32,925 bases of DNA from Roseobacter sp. (GTDB lineage: Bacteria > Pseudomonadota > Alphaproteobacteria > Rhodobacterales > Rhodobacteraceae), in assembly GCF_024639605.1 (NCBI RefSeq), contig NZ_JAHEHZ010000021.1, positions 1 to 32,925 of the forward strand, in the 5' to 3' direction. Numbering within the stretch: position 1 is the stretch's first letter; every line of letters starts with the position of its first letter. This document shows, one piece after another, positions 1 through 4,740 of this stretch. The notes beneath the pieces were generated by a model. It made no database searches. It was not told the origin of the DNA and saw only the letters and a program-made list of their open reading frames with translations. Both the position numbers and the translations under genes were made by a program.

Positions 1-1194
1 TTTGTGCAGATCATGCGGTCCGGTCAGACCGGGCGTAAATCACTCGGGTCTGCGCCGAAGCGGATGGTGGCCACGTGGCTCAATGAGGCATCCGACCGGG
101 CGCTTTTGCAGGCCGGCGTTGGTAACAATCCGTCGCTGGTCGATGTCATCAGGATGGTGCACCCGAAACCTGCATCGGCGGCGCGCGAGGCGCTCTTTGC
201 CTGGATCATCGGCAAGCCCTGTGATGTGGCCCTTCTGCCGTCACTGCTGCAGGACTACCTTCGGTTCAAAGACACCGGCAAAGGGGCCGTGCCGGATGTG
301 CCGTTTCAGATGCTGACGCAACTGCCACTTACCCCGAAACACTGGGCGAAGATCGCGAAAAATGCGTCGTGGCAGATGACCCGGATGAACCTGAACACGT
401 TTCAGCGGCACGGGGTTCTGGAGATGCGCAACATGCGGCGGCTTGTGGCCGCACGGCTGCGGGATCCTGAGCTGATCGCAAAGGCACGGGTGTTCCCGTA
501 CCAGCTGATGACCGCGTATCAGGCGTTGTCTCCGGAGATCCCCGGGGAGATCCGCGAGGCCCTGCACGATGCGATGGAGCTGTCGGTTGCCAGTGTTCCG
601 GTGCTGCCGGGACAGGTGGTTATCTGTCCTGATGTCTCCGGGTCCATGTCGGGTGCTGTGACCGGTTACCGTAAAGGGGCCACCACAGCGACGCGGTTTG
701 TGGATGTCGCAGCCCTTGTCGCTGCTGCTATCCTGCGCCGGAATCCGTCCGCAACTGTGCTGCCGTTCGAGGTAACGGTCCGCGATACGCGCCTCGAGCC
801 ACTCGATACGATCCTGACGAACGCCGCACGGCTGGCGGATGAACGGGGCGGCGGAACGAACTGTGCCGCACCACTCGACTGGCTGCTGGAGCGCGGGCGC
901 AACCCCGATCTGGTGATCATGGTCTCTGATAACCAGTCCTGGGCGCATGCTCAGGCCGGTAACCGGGGCACTGTGATGATGCAGAAATGGGAAGCGTTGA
1001 AGCGACGGAATGCAAAGGCGCGGCTCGTGTGCATCGACATCGCCCCATACGGGACGACGCAGGCATCCGAACGTGAAGACGTGCTGAACATCGGCGGGTT
1101 CTCGGACACCGTCTTCGAGCAGATCGCGGGATTTGCTGCGGGAACACTCGGGGCGGCCCATTGGGTCGGCCGGATCAACGAAATAAAACTGTAA
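1..1194 (+). CDS. rsr: Ro60/Rsr-like TROVE-vWA RNA-binding protein (5' truncated by window edge)
   Basis: The reading frame is open from base 1, so the true start lies upstream; about 397 residues are visible. The N-terminal part has the helical-repeat character of a TROVE domain, the ring that binds misfolded RNA and Y RNA in the Ro60 family. The C-terminal part is a von Willebrand A domain with a metal-ion-dependent adhesion site: D-x-S-x-S at visible residues 210-214, a GGGTN Thr near 285 and a later V-S-D-N Asp. Known bacterial Rsr proteins use a Y RNA to tether an exonuclease or act in RNA repair. The call is supported by the neighbours: Y RNA-like genes begin 13 bases downstream and an rtcB homologue follows on the same strand, which is the known rsr-yrl-rtcB arrangement. 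I see no promoter because the start is missing. Confidence 0.9.
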   Translation, partial: FVQIMRSGQTGRKSLGSAPKRMVATWLNEASDRALLQAGVGNNPSLVDVIRMVHPKPASAAREALFAWIIGKPCDVALLPSLLQDYLRFKDTGKGAVPDVPFQMLTQLPLTPKHWAKIAKNASWQMTRMNLNTFQRHGVLEMRNMRRLVAARLRDPELIAKARVFPYQLMTAYQALSPEIPGEIREALHDAMELSVASVPVLPGQVVICPDVSGSMSGAVTGYRKGATTATRFVDVAALVAAAILRRNPSATVLPFEVTVRDTRLEPLDTILTNAARLADERGGGTNCAAPLDWLLERGRNPDLVIMVSDNQSWAHAQAGNRGTVMMQKWEALKRRNAKARLVCIDIAPYGTTQASEREDVLNIGGFSDTVFEQIAGFAAGTLGAAHWVGRINEIKL

Positions 1195-1207
1195 GAAAGG
1201 ACAACAA

Positions 1208-1347
1208 CCCCGGCGAATGCTGGTGGAACTACATTGTTAATGTTGGTGTCGCAGGTTCGAATCCTGCCGTGGGCTGCGCTTCCTGTTGCACCCCGCGTAG
1301 CTCAGTCAGGGAGAGCACATATGTTTCACCCCACACTTGTCGCCGGG
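1208..1347 (+). ncRNA. yrlA: Y RNA 1, YrlA-like, with circularly permuted tRNA-like domain
   Basis: The terminal Ro-binding stem is CCCGGCGA (1209-1216) paired perfectly with TCGCCGGG (1340-1347). The strands continue as GAATG on the 5' side and CTTGT on the 3' side, matching the CGAnUG/CUUGnC signature of animal Y RNAs. An inner stem is GGTGGAAC (1222-1229) with GTTTCACC (1323-1330). Inside is a tRNA mimic in permuted order: T arm 1251-1267 with TTCGAAT loop, acceptor-like stem 1268-1277/1288-1297 closed by a 10-nt loop at 1278-1287, then a D arm with stems 1300-1303/1313-1316. A small AT-rich hairpin at 1231-1243 holds the remaining arm. Bacterial YrlA RNAs are known to mimic tRNA in this way. 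Exact ends are inferred; there is no clear promoter or terminator of its own, so it may be processed from an rsr-rtcB transcript. Confidence 0.88.
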
Positions 1348-1355
1348 ACACATGA

Positions 1356-1431
1356 TGGAAGGTAGCTCAACCGGCAGAGCACTGGTTTTTGGTATCAGGG
1401 GTTGCAGGTTCGAATCCTGCCCTTCCAGCCA
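1356..1431 (+). tRNA. tRNA-Gln(TTG) embedded between Y RNAs
   Basis: A complete 76-nt cloverleaf can be drawn by hand. The 7-bp acceptor stem is 1356-1362/1421-1427, with the U1-A72 pair usual for tRNA-Gln. The D stem is 1365-1368/1377-1380 with GG in the loop. The anticodon stem is 1382-1386/1394-1398 with one G-T pair, and the loop TTTTGGT carries anticodon TTG. The variable loop is 5 nt, the T arm is 1404-1420 with TTCGAAT, the discriminator is G and CCA is encoded at 1429-1431. Nothing is degenerate, so it should be chargeable. Its position is unusual: 9 bases after Y RNA 1 and 21 bases before Y RNA 2, inside the rsr-rtcB unit. It could be an ordinary tRNA captured in the operon or a component of the RNA-repair locus. 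Confidence 0.88.
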
Positions 1432-1451
1432 GACAAACAGAAAGGAAAATA

Positions 1452-1528
1452 TCCGGGGGAATGCCCGTGGGATTACATCGCTGGACCCGATCGCCGAAAG
1501 GCATCTCACGATCCACTTGTCCCCCGGA
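1452..1528 (+). ncRNA. Y RNA 2, short form without tRNA-like domain
   Basis: The terminal stem is TCCGGGGGA (1452-1460) paired perfectly with TCCCCCGGA (1520-1528). As in Y RNA 1, the 5' strand continues GAATG and the 3' strand is preceded by CTTGT. The segment after GAATG (CCCGTGGGATTACAT, 1464-1478) aligns with the equivalent part of Y RNA 1. An inner stem pairs GTGG (1467-1470) with CCAC (1513-1516). The apex is a GAAA-tetraloop hairpin, GAT-C-GCC/GGC-ATC, at 1489-1505. There is no T arm or D arm, so it resembles the minimal Y RNAs that lack the tRNA mimic. It is called by homology of the module to its neighbours; boundaries are approximate. Confidence 0.75.
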
Positions 1529-1532
1529 CCCG

Positions 1533-1679
1533 GGGCCTGAAATGCCCGTCAGGATTACAAGGTACACGCCCTCTCTGTCACAGGGAGGGGCATCCCGAAA
1601 GGGGTGCCATGCCGGTTCGAATCCGGTCCGGCCGAGGCCGGTGGCGAAAAATCATCCTGACTCCGCCTTGTTCGGGCCC
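1533..1679 (+). ncRNA. Y RNA 3, with T-arm-containing domain
   Basis: The terminal stem is GGGCCTGAA (1533-1541) with TTCGGGCCC (1671-1679), 9 bp with one G-T pair. The 5' strand continues AATGCCCGT and the 3' strand is preceded by CTTG, as in the other two. The inner stem is a perfect 8 bp, GTCAGGAT (1548-1555) with ATCCTGAC (1654-1661). Inside are a 9-bp hairpin at 1569-1589, a GAAA-tetraloop hairpin at about 1590-1608, a tRNA-type T arm with TTCGAAT loop at 1611-1627, and an acceptor-like hairpin CCGGC/GCCGG at 1628-1641. I find no D arm, so the tRNA mimicry is partial. It ends 25 bases before rtcB. Confidence 0.75.
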
Positions 1680-1704
1680 TGTTTTTAAACTGAAGGTAAA
1701 GATT

Positions 1705-3105
1705 ATGACTGAGACACAGATTACATCCGACACACTGAAAGCCTGGGGGCATTTGCCCGGCAAGGCCTTTGGGCAAGCGCTGGAAATGGCACAGGCCGCC
1801 GAAGCGGCGGGCGATAACCTGAATGCGATCCGCGAACGGATTGAGCCGCTGAAACCCGCGCCTGTCACACCCTTGCAAAAGGCGGGCGAAGTGCCGTTTC
1901 ATTTCAATATCGAAGCATCGGACGACCCGGATGAGGTGAAAAACCTCGGGCAGGTGCATGAGACGATGATGGCAGTTATGCGCACGCCGACTGTGGTTTC
2001 GGCAGCCGTGATGCCGGATGCCTGTCCGGCAGGGCCGGTGGGCACGATCCCTGTGGGCGGCGTAGTAGCCGCGCGCAATGCGATTCACCCGGGCATGCAT
2101 TCGGCCGACATCTGCTGTTCGGTGATGATGACCGATATGGGCGATGCTGATCCGAAAGCGGTGCTGGATGCTGCCGAACAGGTCACGCATTTCGGTCCCG
2201 GCGGACGGGCGAACGGGCGGCGTTACACGTTGTCGCAAAAGCTGATGGATGCGTTTCGGGAGAACCCGTTTCTGAACAACCCGAAAATCCTGCGTATGGC
2301 GGTGGAACATCTGGGCACCCAGGGTGACGGCAACCATTTTCTGTTTGTCGGGCGGTCGCGTGCCACAGGGCGCACTGCGATGATCACTCATCACGGCTCA
2401 CGCGGGCCGGGGGCGGTGCTCTATAAGCTGGGGATGCAGGTGGCCGACCGGTTCCGCAGAGAGCTTTCGCCCGACACGCTGAAGCAAAACGCATGGATTC
2501 CGGCGGATACGCAAGAGGGCCGGGATTACTGGGCGGCGTTGCAGCTCATCCGCAAGTGGACCAAAGCCAACCACAATGCGCTGCATCAGGCGACGGTGGA
2601 AGCGTCAAAGGCCCGGCCGGGAGAGCGGTTCTGGAACGAACACAACTTCGTCTTTCGCCGCAATGACCTGTATTTTCACGGCAAGGGCGCGACCCCTGCC
2701 TGGGGCGATTACGCGCAGGATGCGACCGGGCTGACCCTGATCCCGCTCAATATGTCTGAGCCGGTTCTGGTCGTACGGGGCCGGGACGCGGACCACGGGC
2801 TGGGGTTCTCGCCGCACGGGGCAGGGCGCAACTTCTCGCGCTCCGAGCACAAGCGGCGCATGGGAGATGTCACGGCGCAGCAGGCGCTGGAGGCGGAAAC
2901 CGCAGGGCTTGATATCCGCTTTCCTGCCGGTGGTGTCGATGCTTCGGAACTGCCGTCGTCTTACAAGGACGCGGCGTCTGTGGTGGCGCAGATTGAGAAA
3001 TTCGGTCTGGCGGATATCGAGGATTACATCGACCCTTACGGGTGCATGATGGCCGGCGATATCCCGCCATTCTGGATGGAACGAAAGAAAAAGCGCCGCA
3101 GATAA
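1705..3105 (+). CDS. rtcB: RtcB-family RNA-splicing ligase
   Basis: The protein is 466 residues and joins RNA 3'-phosphate or 2',3'-cyclic phosphate ends to 5'-OH ends using GTP and Mn2+. Residues matching the known metal and guanylylation sites are visible: D-x-x-C at 135-138, LGTQGDGNHF with His 211, HHGSRGPG with His 230, a later N-E-H-N-F (His 313), and HGAGR with His 371, the expected guanylylated His. The GSMG-type stretch of E. coli RtcB reads differently here, so this is a divergent member. Start ATG 1705 is chosen because GAAGG at 1692-1696 precedes it; the frame is open further upstream, but that part lies in the Y RNA genes. The role inferred from context is repair of damaged tRNA or other structured RNA together with Rsr. 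No rtcA or rtcR is in the window. Confidence 0.92.
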   Translation: MTETQITSDTLKAWGHLPGKAFGQALEMAQAAEAAGDNLNAIRERIEPLKPAPVTPLQKAGEVPFHFNIEASDDPDEVKNLGQVHETMMAVMRTPTVVSAAVMPDACPAGPVGTIPVGGVVAARNAIHPGMHSADICCSVMMTDMGDADPKAVLDAAEQVTHFGPGGRANGRRYTLSQKLMDAFRENPFLNNPKILRMAVEHLGTQGDGNHFLFVGRSRATGRTAMITHHGSRGPGAVLYKLGMQVADRFRRELSPDTLKQNAWIPADTQEGRDYWAALQLIRKWTKANHNALHQATVEASKARPGERFWNEHNFVFRRNDLYFHGKGATPAWGDYAQDATGLTLIPLNMSEPVLVVRGRDADHGLGFSPHGAGRNFSRSEHKRRMGDVTAQQALEAETAGLDIRFPAGGVDASELPSSYKDAASVVAQIEKFGLADIEDYIDPYGCMMAGDIPPFWMERKKKRRR

Positions 3106-3110
3106 ACGAG

Positions 3111-3141
3111 GGCCCGCAATTTTCAGGTGCGGGCCTTTTTT
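3111..3141 (+). terminator. Rho-independent terminator after rtcB
   Basis: An 8-bp GC-rich stem, GGCCCGCA (3111-3118) with TGCGGGCC (3128-3135), is followed directly by a run of six T. It begins 6 bases after the rtcB stop and ends the rsr-Y RNA-rtcB unit before the convergent peroxidase gene. Confidence 0.92.
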
Positions 3142-3147
3142 ACGGTC

Positions 3148-4740
3148 TCAGAGCAGCGAGAGATACCGCAGGGCAGCCATTCCGGGCAGAAAGAAATACT
3201 CGCCCCCTGCCATCTGCACGAAGGTCTGAACTTCGATGCGCCGGCGCAACGGATCTTCGGGCAGGGTCATCCAGCCATCGGGTCCGACCAGCGGGTCGAC
3301 TTCCTCAAAGAGCGTGTGAAAATCCGAATTCAGCAGCCAGGTCTGTTGCACGAATTCGAACTGACGCGCGATATCCGTGTTCAGGCACATAAAGAGCAAC
3401 CCGCGGTCCGCGCCGTCATCGGTACCGGGGTCTGCAAGATTGCTGCCGTATTTACGCGCGCGGCGCAGGATCCGGTGATTGTTGGCGGCGCTGAGCAGTG
3501 TCTCTTTCATGCTCTCTTCGGGGGCCAGAGAGTCGCGGGGGTTGGCGCGGCGCACATGACTGCCCAGCGGACAGCCGAACCCGTGTCTGTCTTTGTCAAA
3601 AAACAGAAAATCATTGTCCGGCAGATCGTTTCTGCCCGCGGGGGCAGGTCCGCCGGGGCGCAGCAGGTGGCCTTCTTTGTCGCGGCCCACGACGCGGGCG
3701 GCAATCCAGCCGGCTGTGATATGTGTGGCGTCCGGGTCTTTGCTCCGGATGATTTCAGAGGCTTTATTCATGGCTTTCCAGAAAGCAGCAACATCCTGAT
3801 GCAGCTCGCGGACCACCAGATAACTGCCGTTGCGCCCGAAATCATAAAAACCGCGCGCTTCGGCATGTGGCCTGAGGCCTGCGCGTTCGGGCCTTCCGCC
3901 ATCCGGCGCGTCGGGTTCACCCGGAACAACGGGTCCGGGCGGGTGCTCCTGGTGGCCGTTGCTGTACCCCATCAGGAACTCGCCCAGTGGCACGCCGTGC
4001 ACCGGATCAGGCTGCGTTACCGTCTCGCCGCCGCGTTCAACTGCACCACCGGCGTCAAAGGGCAGCGGTTGCGACAACCCGTCGGCAAAGCCGAAATGCT
4101 CCCGGCTGATGCCTGAGCTTTCCACATCCAGCAGCAGGGGCAACTGATGCACAATCTTCACATCAAGCGGTTCGAGTGCCGCGCGGGCCACTTCCACCAG
4201 CGCATCTGCGTCAGCCTCGGTATGCGCATACAGCAGGATCAGTGCGTGTACCGTGAGATCGGTAGTGATGTGCGAGGACACCTTCTCAGGCCCTACGCTA
4301 TAGGCCTCAGGCGCATTAATGGTTTCCGGGGCGGCGACATTGCCGCTCCAGCGCGGACCGCCCTTGATCACGGTATCCATCCATTTGTCTTTGCGCCGGT
4401 CGCCCAGTCTGCGCAGCCGGTCTTCCTGAAACATGCCTTCGCGAAACGCGGGTGCGAAAGATGCCAGTGTGGCCTCCGAAAGCCCGATCCGTTCAAGCCC
4501 TGATGCAGTAAAGGCAATCGCGGCGGCTCGATCCAATACCTTGCCGCGTCCGGTGCGGGCGGCGTCGGTCACGGGAATTTTGTCGTTCAGCGCCTTAAGC
4601 CAGGCACCTCCTGCCTCACTGGGCAGTGCCGCAAAAAGGGAGCGGCCGGTTTCGAGCCGGCCAAATCCGCTTACCACGAGCGCCTGGGTATCGGCGGCGA
4701 CAGGCGGGCTGAGTTTCCATTTCGGGGACGGGTTTTGCAT
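3148..4740 (-). CDS. DyP-type haem peroxidase
   Basis: The protein is 530 residues. Dye-decolourising peroxidases are haem enzymes that use H2O2. The family's GxxDG motif appears as GFADG at residues 216-220, supplying the distal Asp. The proximal side appears as CPLGSHVRRANPR near 390-402, giving His 395 as the likely axial ligand, followed by HRILRRARKYG. There is no evident Tat or Sec signal peptide, so it is probably cytoplasmic or encapsulated. It is somewhat longer than many DyPs. The start ATG at 4740 overlaps the stop of the upstream gene by one base (TGATG), so I expect translational coupling to the membrane protein. An N-terminal extension in the same frame runs into that gene and was rejected. 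Confidence 0.9.
   Translation of the reverse strand: MQNPSPKWKLSPPVAADTQALVVSGFGRLETGRSLFAALPSEAGGAWLKALNDKIPVTDAARTGRGKVLDRAAAIAFTASGLERIGLSEATLASFAPAFREGMFQEDRLRRLGDRRKDKWMDTVIKGGPRWSGNVAAPETINAPEAYSVGPEKVSSHITTDLTVHALILLYAHTEADADALVEVARAALEPLDVKIVHQLPLLLDVESSGISREHFGFADGLSQPLPFDAGGAVERGGETVTQPDPVHGVPLGEFLMGYSNGHQEHPPGPVVPGEPDAPDGGRPERAGLRPHAEARGFYDFGRNGSYLVVRELHQDVAAFWKAMNKASEIIRSKDPDATHITAGWIAARVVGRDKEGHLLRPGGPAPAGRNDLPDNDFLFFDKDRHGFGCPLGSHVRRANPRDSLAPEESMKETLLSAANNHRILRRARKYGSNLADPGTDDGADRGLLFMCLNTDIARQFEFVQQTWLLNSDFHTLFEEVDPLVGPDGWMTLPEDPLRRRIEVQTFVQMAGGEYFFLPGMAALRYLSLL

Follow-up and report, generated by a model that had tools for sequence, protein, structure and literature searches.

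The nearest described counterpart of the locus studied here is the rsr-yrlBA-rtcBA operon of Salmonella, which, in the parts of the reports drawn on here, brings a divergent RtcR, Rsr, Y RNAs and RtcB together (PMC7790460, PMC9879122). In the same passages, Salmonella RtcR binds cyclic-phosphate tRNA fragments, a decoy role is raised for the Y RNA YrlA, and the role of bacterial Y RNAs beside RtcB is placed by the authors outside their study (PMC7790460). YrlA (structure 6CU1) is described as a mimic of the D, T and acceptor arms of tRNA that is modified by tRNA enzymes and tethers Rsr to PNPase, and the Deinococcus complex of Rsr, Y RNA and PNPase (RYPER) has such a tether as well (sections of PMC8394870).

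Here we describe a related locus at the left end of contig NZ_JAHEHZ010000021.1 of Roseobacter sp. (assembly GCF_024639605.1). This stretch of 32,925 nucleotides, called the window below, is contig C44 of a draft genome in 260 contigs (G000, the home genome). The gene rtcR diverges from rsr, which is followed by three Y-type RNAs (modules 1 to 3) and a tRNA-Gln and then by a divergent form of rtcB. Judged by comparison with its relatives, the locus is very probably a small representative of an Rsr-RtcB locus family whose Y RNA arrays are often interspersed with tRNAs. A reading of the DNA made without database searches (the sequence-only reading) had proposed that Rsr, Y RNAs, a tRNA and RtcB form one locus, in which a complete tRNA-Gln accompanies three different Y-type RNAs, and this is supported. 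Its parts are:

1..1194, plus strand: rsr (Ro60 homologue), 3' part; Pfam vWA_Ro60 53.7 bits, cut-off 27.7
1209..1347, plus strand: Y RNA module 1, YrlA class; Rfam RF02553 70.9 bits at 1210-1349, gathering cut-off 69
1356..1431, plus strand: tRNA-Gln(UUG), CCA encoded, array-type paralogue; ARAGORN; Rfam tRNA 64.3 bits, cut-off 29
1452..1528, plus strand: Y RNA module 2, short class, found by the handle scan; no tRNA-like head; GCC-GAAA-GGC hairpin
1531..1681, plus strand: Y RNA module 3, class E; match to covariance model R1 at 1535-1676, 101.2 bits (the window being among the 15 training rows)
1705..3105, plus strand: rtcB, RNA ligase (divergent); Pfam RtcB 123.1 bits, cut-off 27
G000:C247:11434-13008, minus strand: rtcR, upstream of rsr on the opposite strand; Pfam RtcR 253 bits

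The locus thus resembles the Salmonella operon, as far as that is described in the parts cited, in joining a divergent RtcR, Rsr, Y RNAs and RtcB in a single place; an RtcR both adjacent and divergent and an RtcB ligase, as expected of an RtcR-controlled operon, are present. Unlike that operon, the window has three Y RNA classes and a tRNA, no RtcA family match was obtained among the 14 window open reading frames (ORFs) tested (a genome-wide search for RtcA was not made), and no sigma-54 element was found before rsr, where 170 nt held no candidate. With RYPER, as outlined in its source, the locus shares an Rsr with a Y RNA tether, and it differs in the several heads of its single locus and in that no sign of PNPase binding was seen.

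The Y RNA modules and their handle

Each module had been assigned a terminal stem by the sequence-only reading, and all three stems lie where they were placed: 1209-1216 (CCCGGCGA) pairs with 1340-1347 (TCGCCGGG) in module 1 (8 of 8 pairs), 1452-1460 (TCCGGGGGA) with 1520-1528 (TCCCCCGGA) in module 2 (9 of 9) and 1533-1541 (GGGCCTGAA) with 1671-1679 (TTCGGGCCC) in module 3 (9 of 9, one of them G-U). Paired ends, an inner stem and the internal loop AAUGC / CUUGU recur in all three modules, so that one common handle is joined to three different heads. The modules may be interchangeable subunits, as had been suggested.

When the rsr-rtcB gap was scanned for this handle (outer stem, AAUGC, inner stem ... 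CUUGU, outer stem), exactly three places were reported, 1209-1347, 1452-1528 and 1531-1681 (scores 43, 45 and 48), and no module appeared in 100 dinucleotide shuffles of the gap at threshold 20. Folding energies were only moderately under those of shuffles (z = -1.75, -1.47 and -3.12 for modules 1, 2 and 3; 10, 16 and 0 of 200 shuffles folded as well).

The comparison drew on Rsr relatives from 394 family genomes (26 matched at E 0.001 or better, home included; the matches of G258 and G329 were short and weak, and the one same-genus genome listed, G266, gave no Rsr match), from a species collection (61 loci) and from viral contigs (one). We scanned 82 loci with different rsr, counting modules within 1.5 kb after rsr with a score of at least 34. 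The scan reported 287 modules, against none in 820 shuffled sequences (10 per locus) and none in the 82 rsr coding stretches; since the scanner demands paired stems, pairing among its matches is no evidence by itself, and these shuffles and coding stretches are the controls.

Compensatory stem changes across related genomes, whose absence would have refuted the proposal of the sequence-only reading, were found in all three module classes. The tRNA-like head of module 1 is open at the anticodon arm and consists of a T arm, a closed acceptor-like stem and a D arm; like YrlA, module 1 carries these on a Y RNA stem. In 12 rows of the YrlA class, 97.6% of the cells are paired and 11 of 28 pairs are changed on both sides, with a covariation score of 0.318 (at most 0.110 with partners slid); the D-stem is invariant. 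Rfam, as an independent model, placed 11 YrlA RNAs at or over the cut-off in nine of 12 relatives searched, the three without one being L032, L033 and L034. The proposed check with bacterial Y RNA models succeeded for module 1 and failed for the region of modules 2 and 3 (1452-1681), which gave no RF02553 match up to E 10; nor do these two reach the gathering score of any Rfam family. The short class to which module 2 belongs covaries as well (21 rows, 98.6% of cells paired, score 0.137 against at most 0.043 with partners slid), and six of its 18 pairs are changed on both sides, or four, by our count, if the double changes of one doubtful row (L139 module 6) are set aside.

The head of module 3

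The newest point concerns module 3. The sequence-only reading was right in taking it for a Y-type RNA but missed its tRNA mimicry, which differs in kind from that of YrlA. Read from the 5' end, class E RNAs consist of the inner stem, GGUAGACGC (GGUACACGC in the window), which is the second half of a leucine-type D arm, two hairpins, a T arm, an acceptor-like stem closed by a loop, GUGGCG, which supplies the D arm's first half, and the closing strand of the inner stem. In the window these parts are:

1561..1569, plus strand: GGUACACGC, D arm second half, with the GG expected to contact the T-loop (from sequence)
1570..1610, plus strand: hairpin replacing the anticodon arm, then a long variable-arm-like hairpin
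1611..1627, plus strand: T arm GCCGG-TTCGAAT-CCGGT (from sequence)
1628-1641, plus strand: closed acceptor-like hairpin (from sequence)
1641-1646, plus strand: D arm first half GUGGCG (from sequence; 1628..1646 together with the acceptor hairpin)

Module 3 looks like a circularly permuted mimic of a class II (Leu-like) tRNA with both its ends in the D-loop. In the YrlA RNAs known so far the opening is at the anticodon arm, and module 3 departs from them both in its place of opening and in its long variable-arm-like hairpin; the novelty of the arrangement is not proven. Comparison with tmRNA also suggests itself, as this is a stable RNA whose tRNA part is incomplete and has no anticodon arm. 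In module 3 neither a reading frame nor a free acceptor end was seen, and a Y RNA handle is there instead. Opening in the D-loop, if true, would give nature a second route for grafting a tRNA body onto another RNA.

The fold is supported by pairs that covary, the D-stem excepted. In 15 rows, 98.3% of the cells are paired, 11 of 24 pairs are changed on both sides, and the covariation score of 0.378 (at most 0.120 with partners slid) was reached by none of 500 shuffles; a measure of further pair types showed no excess (180 of 500). Without a given structure, RNAalifold predicts the identical five helices. Model R1, applied to 80 loci (all of the 82 except L066 and L089), sets class E at 23 related RNAs including module 3, all at 87 bits or more with the next match at 57; it also matches many other modules at lower scores (206 matches up to E 1). 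With the eight later members added in an alignment fitted to the model, the 23 rows give 99.3% paired cells, 17 of 24 pairs changed on both sides and a score of 0.445 against at most 0.143.

In all 15 rows the hairpin in place of the anticodon arm has a loop of three to six bases and is followed by the variable-arm-like hairpin. This two-hairpin fold recurs in six of the eight later members (L071 has one hairpin, and L079 is unscored). None of 200 shuffles is as stable as the two hairpins of module 3; for the class E RNA of L035 the test is weak (22 of 200).

The GG of the D-loop meets the T-loop in tRNA. The D-arm GG is kept in 22 of the 23 class E RNAs (L079 has GA), and the T-loop starts with TTC in 22 of them (TTT in L079; L048 has TTCAAAC, as read from the alignment). 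In the home genome, three of the five tRNA-Leu genes seen carry both GTGGCGG and GGTAGACGC. When class E rows were rearranged into tRNA order, tRNA-Leu was the best match for 15 of 15 against 32 home tRNA rows (two of them duplicates; 30 tRNA places among the matches listed), and 13 scored above the highest of 20 shuffles, L047 and L125 being equal to it. The pattern that collected these 15 rows required Leu-like D-arm halves, so that this likeness is not independent of it, and the class was first recognised among modules picked by their handle. Mimics of class I type that are likewise opened in the D-loop occur in other modules, picked by pattern, including some of L032, L041, L125, L126, L139 and the planctomycete L070.

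Two other calls overlap module 3. A tRNA-SeC reported by ARAGORN at 1547-1635 is most likely a misreading of the module, since a gene there would ignore the covarying outer and inner stems. Rfam NLPC-P60 on the minus strand at 1571-1655 reached 16.1 bits against a cut-off of 53.7 and was likewise discarded. A further Y RNA class of about 145-155 nt (GAATGCCGAAGGAACTACA ... GGGTTCAACTCCCC) was seen elsewhere, for example in L126 module 4, L128 module 5 and L138 module 3.

Array tRNAs and related loci

Three Y RNAs together with a tRNA had been thought unusual, and this is not supported. The 45 alphaproteobacterial (alpha) loci, window included, have two (8 loci), three (4), four (14), five (8), six (8) or seven modules (3), and 31 of them also have tRNAs. 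Among the 37 loci from other groups, four lack modules, five have one and 28 have two to five. Y RNAs in bacterial rsr loci are known, and three modules per locus is not unusual. No description of a Y RNA array with tRNAs was found among the titles and abstract openings listed in a literature search, which does not prove novelty.

A maximum-likelihood Rsr tree (80 of 82 rows, L087 and L089 being too short; midpoint root, bootstrap unsettled) joined 44 of the 45 alpha rows at 100/99 and put the window in a set of 16 (100/94); L140 fell among the other groups on a long branch. A close relative, L035 of Octadecabacter algicola, holds seven modules by the scan, an eighth of class E by the covariance model, and tRNA-Pro, tRNA-Asn and tRNA-Gln. 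The order tRNA-Gln, short Y RNA, class E before rtcB recurs in eight loci (L031-L035, L037, L041 and L047).

The tRNA-Gln of the window is intact, with a tRNA fold, the UUG anticodon and CCA. A separate tRNA-Gln(UUG) gene lies elsewhere in the home genome, on a different contig, and the array gene differs from the chromosomal tRNA-Gln L098. As a query it found array copies at 86-89% in three of five other genomes, having missed the array tRNA-Gln of G166 (L139) that ARAGORN reports. Among the alpha loci, tRNA-Asn (19), tRNA-Gln (14), tRNA-Pro (12) and tRNA-Lys (7) recur, and CCA is encoded in all 52 array tRNAs (SeC and minus-strand calls are left out of these counts). The tRNA-Asn of L035 is 91-96% like array copies (six genomes) and 85-86% like chromosomal copies (seven), of eight genomes searched, and finds only a 23-base match in the home genome. 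An array tRNA-Lys (L131) found array copies at 90-98% over 66-72 of 75 bases in three of four other genomes and elsewhere partial matches only, at 75-80%; this search missed the array tRNA-Lys of G196 (L129). On these comparisons, the array tRNAs look like lineages of their own.

Outside the alpha loci, believable tRNAs were found in five of 37 loci (L073, L076, L080, L081 and L090), which belong to Planctomycetota (two), Calditrichota, Myxococcota and a viral contig, and they stand among Y modules in L073, L076 and L081. ARAGORN calls of tRNA-Leu in L058 and tRNA-Arg in L064 were rejected, as they hold Y motifs or overlap a Y module. In L080 and in the viral contig L090, tRNA-Thr and tRNA-Gln lie close after rsr (L090 also has tRNA-Glu), and the handle scan reported no Y module there at score 30. 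The m1G37 modification is the rule in tRNA-Pro. All 12 array tRNA-Pro (L029, L032, L033, L034, L035, L037, L038, L041, L044, L045, L047 and L136) have A37, and the two chromosomal tRNA-Pro compared in the home genome have G at this position.

Possible working, rival explanations and surroundings

The arrangement suggests a response to damaged RNA that brings along its own tRNA look-alikes and spare tRNAs. RtcR would sense RNA fragments with cyclic-phosphate ends, like its Salmonella relative, and turn the locus on. Different Y RNAs, once loaded onto Rsr, would present different docking heads, to which a nuclease or proteins that bind tRNA bodies might dock or on which damaging nucleases might be kept occupied; the array tRNA would substitute for one class of cleaved tRNA, and RtcB would reseal whatever is resealable. 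As a whole, this working, in which RNA damage would bring Y RNA adaptors, a spare tRNA and RtcB into play under RtcR, is plausible, and we put it forward tentatively. It is a more speculative possibility that Rhodobacteraceae and their relatives hold in one locus a kit against tRNA damage, in which Rsr-bound Y RNAs, many of them uncuttable in the anticodon loop, mimic tRNA bodies by two circular permutations, one with its opening at the anticodon arm and one with it in the D-loop of class I and class II Leu-type tRNAs, beside a separate lineage of replacement tRNAs (Asn, Gln, Lys, Pro), RtcB and an RtcR freed from sigma-54. A common handle with differing heads speaks for adaptors, the short-loop hairpin of class E for decoys, and the separate, conserved tRNA lineages for replacement. 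With one handle on many heads, several of them tRNA-shaped, beside spare tRNAs, the three ideas become separately testable.

Several results weigh against this proposed damage response. No docking head can be made out in the short module. A locus can do without spare tRNAs, since no tRNA was detected in 14 of the 45 alpha loci. The D-stem of class E is invariant and hence untestable by covariation, and Rsr stays at 63.1 bits against the NCBIfam equivalog cut-off of 900, the query being truncated and this Rsr divergent. Induction, finally, is probably not by the known route, since two elements of the sigma-54 circuit described for Salmonella, the promoter and the RtcR loop GAFTGA, were not found in most alpha loci. 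A sigma-54 element of at least 9 of 11 positions within 350 nt before rsr occurs in none of 44 alpha loci versus 25 of 36 others. A GAFTGA-type loop was read in 24 of 25 non-alpha RtcR; of the 44 alpha loci, two have it (L051 and L140), 21 differ (GAFAGA and GAFSGA being two of these loops) and 21 are unreadable by pattern, and the loop of the home RtcR (L121) reads QAGAGG. The alpha circuit has probably left sigma-54 control, to judge from these motifs.

A role purely as decoys, in which tRNA-like Y RNAs and tRNAs alike absorb tRNA-cleaving nucleases and nothing serves Rsr as an adaptor, would agree with the short-loop hairpin at the anticodon-loop site of class E (15 of 15 rows, six of eight later members), which could be bound and not cut there, and the idea was raised for YrlA itself in the passages cited (PMC7790460). 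However, the Y RNA handle is on all counted modules, which were selected by it, and the short class has the handle without a tRNA-like head; we consider a decoy role alone unlikely. The tRNAs could instead serve mainly as punctuation, RNase P and 3' processing cutting a long transcript into separate Y RNAs. Short spacers do separate them from the Y modules on either side, a promoter search over 1100-3200 returned no sigma-70-like site (0.5 expected in shuffles), and the sole terminator-like site there lies within tRNA-Gln (1.9 expected by chance). Yet the 14 alpha loci without a detected tRNA, the many adjacent Y modules with none between them and the recurrence of four amino-acid types in different loci, which punctuation would not need, make this decidedly unlikely.

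Lying between two genes of the same strand, the modules might also be cis-acting elements of the mRNA, such as attenuators or processing sites, and not free RNAs, a reading to which the one terminator-like pattern would lend itself, though it is below the chance number. It is very improbable in view of module 1, which attains the YrlA cut-off, of a Y RNA anatomy kept with covariation, and of a module number and order that vary widely among loci. Scarcely credible is decay of the array into debris of tRNA and Y RNA duplications: the window does have fewer modules than L035, and L035 has one strange hairpin copy, but all three modules of the window have intact stems and the changes in relatives are compensatory. 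The preferred reading is an RtcR-linked Rsr-RtcB locus with Y RNAs and a spare tRNA, well supported as to the identity of its parts, that would act after RNA damage at the strength given above.

As to the surrounding genes, rsr had been taken as the left gene of the locus, which is correct, with the amendment that it runs off the left contig edge: its 5' part is on contig C247, which overlaps the window and at whose end Rsr residues 1-40 were recovered at 100%. Both Ro60 domains, TROVE and vWA, are found at the locus; the truncated window protein scores 22.9 for TROVE, just under the cut-off of 23, and the full-length relative of L035 scores 31.1. Further downstream, the ORFs sampled include a Dyp-peroxidase-like protein, a glycerophosphodiester phosphodiesterase, a malonyl-CoA decarboxylase, parts of TRAP and ABC transporters, and dehydrogenases, so that the DNA beyond rtcB is, as far as sampled, ordinary chromosome.

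Some other features were seen in L035. A Y-like unit at L035:6645-6770, unreported by the scan, has arms that form one long near-perfect hairpin (GCGTTGAATGC ... GCATTCAACGC). KptA/Tpt1, an RNA 2'-phosphotransferase (KptA by Pfam), shares a single open frame with RtcB at L035:8606-10669, preceded by an ORF without a Pfam match (L035:7650-8666), and upstream lie a second RtcB and a protein with an RF-1 domain, which we take to be PrfH-like. An Rsr relative is also present in 99 phage records (76 from Streptomyces phages), all at less than 60% identity.

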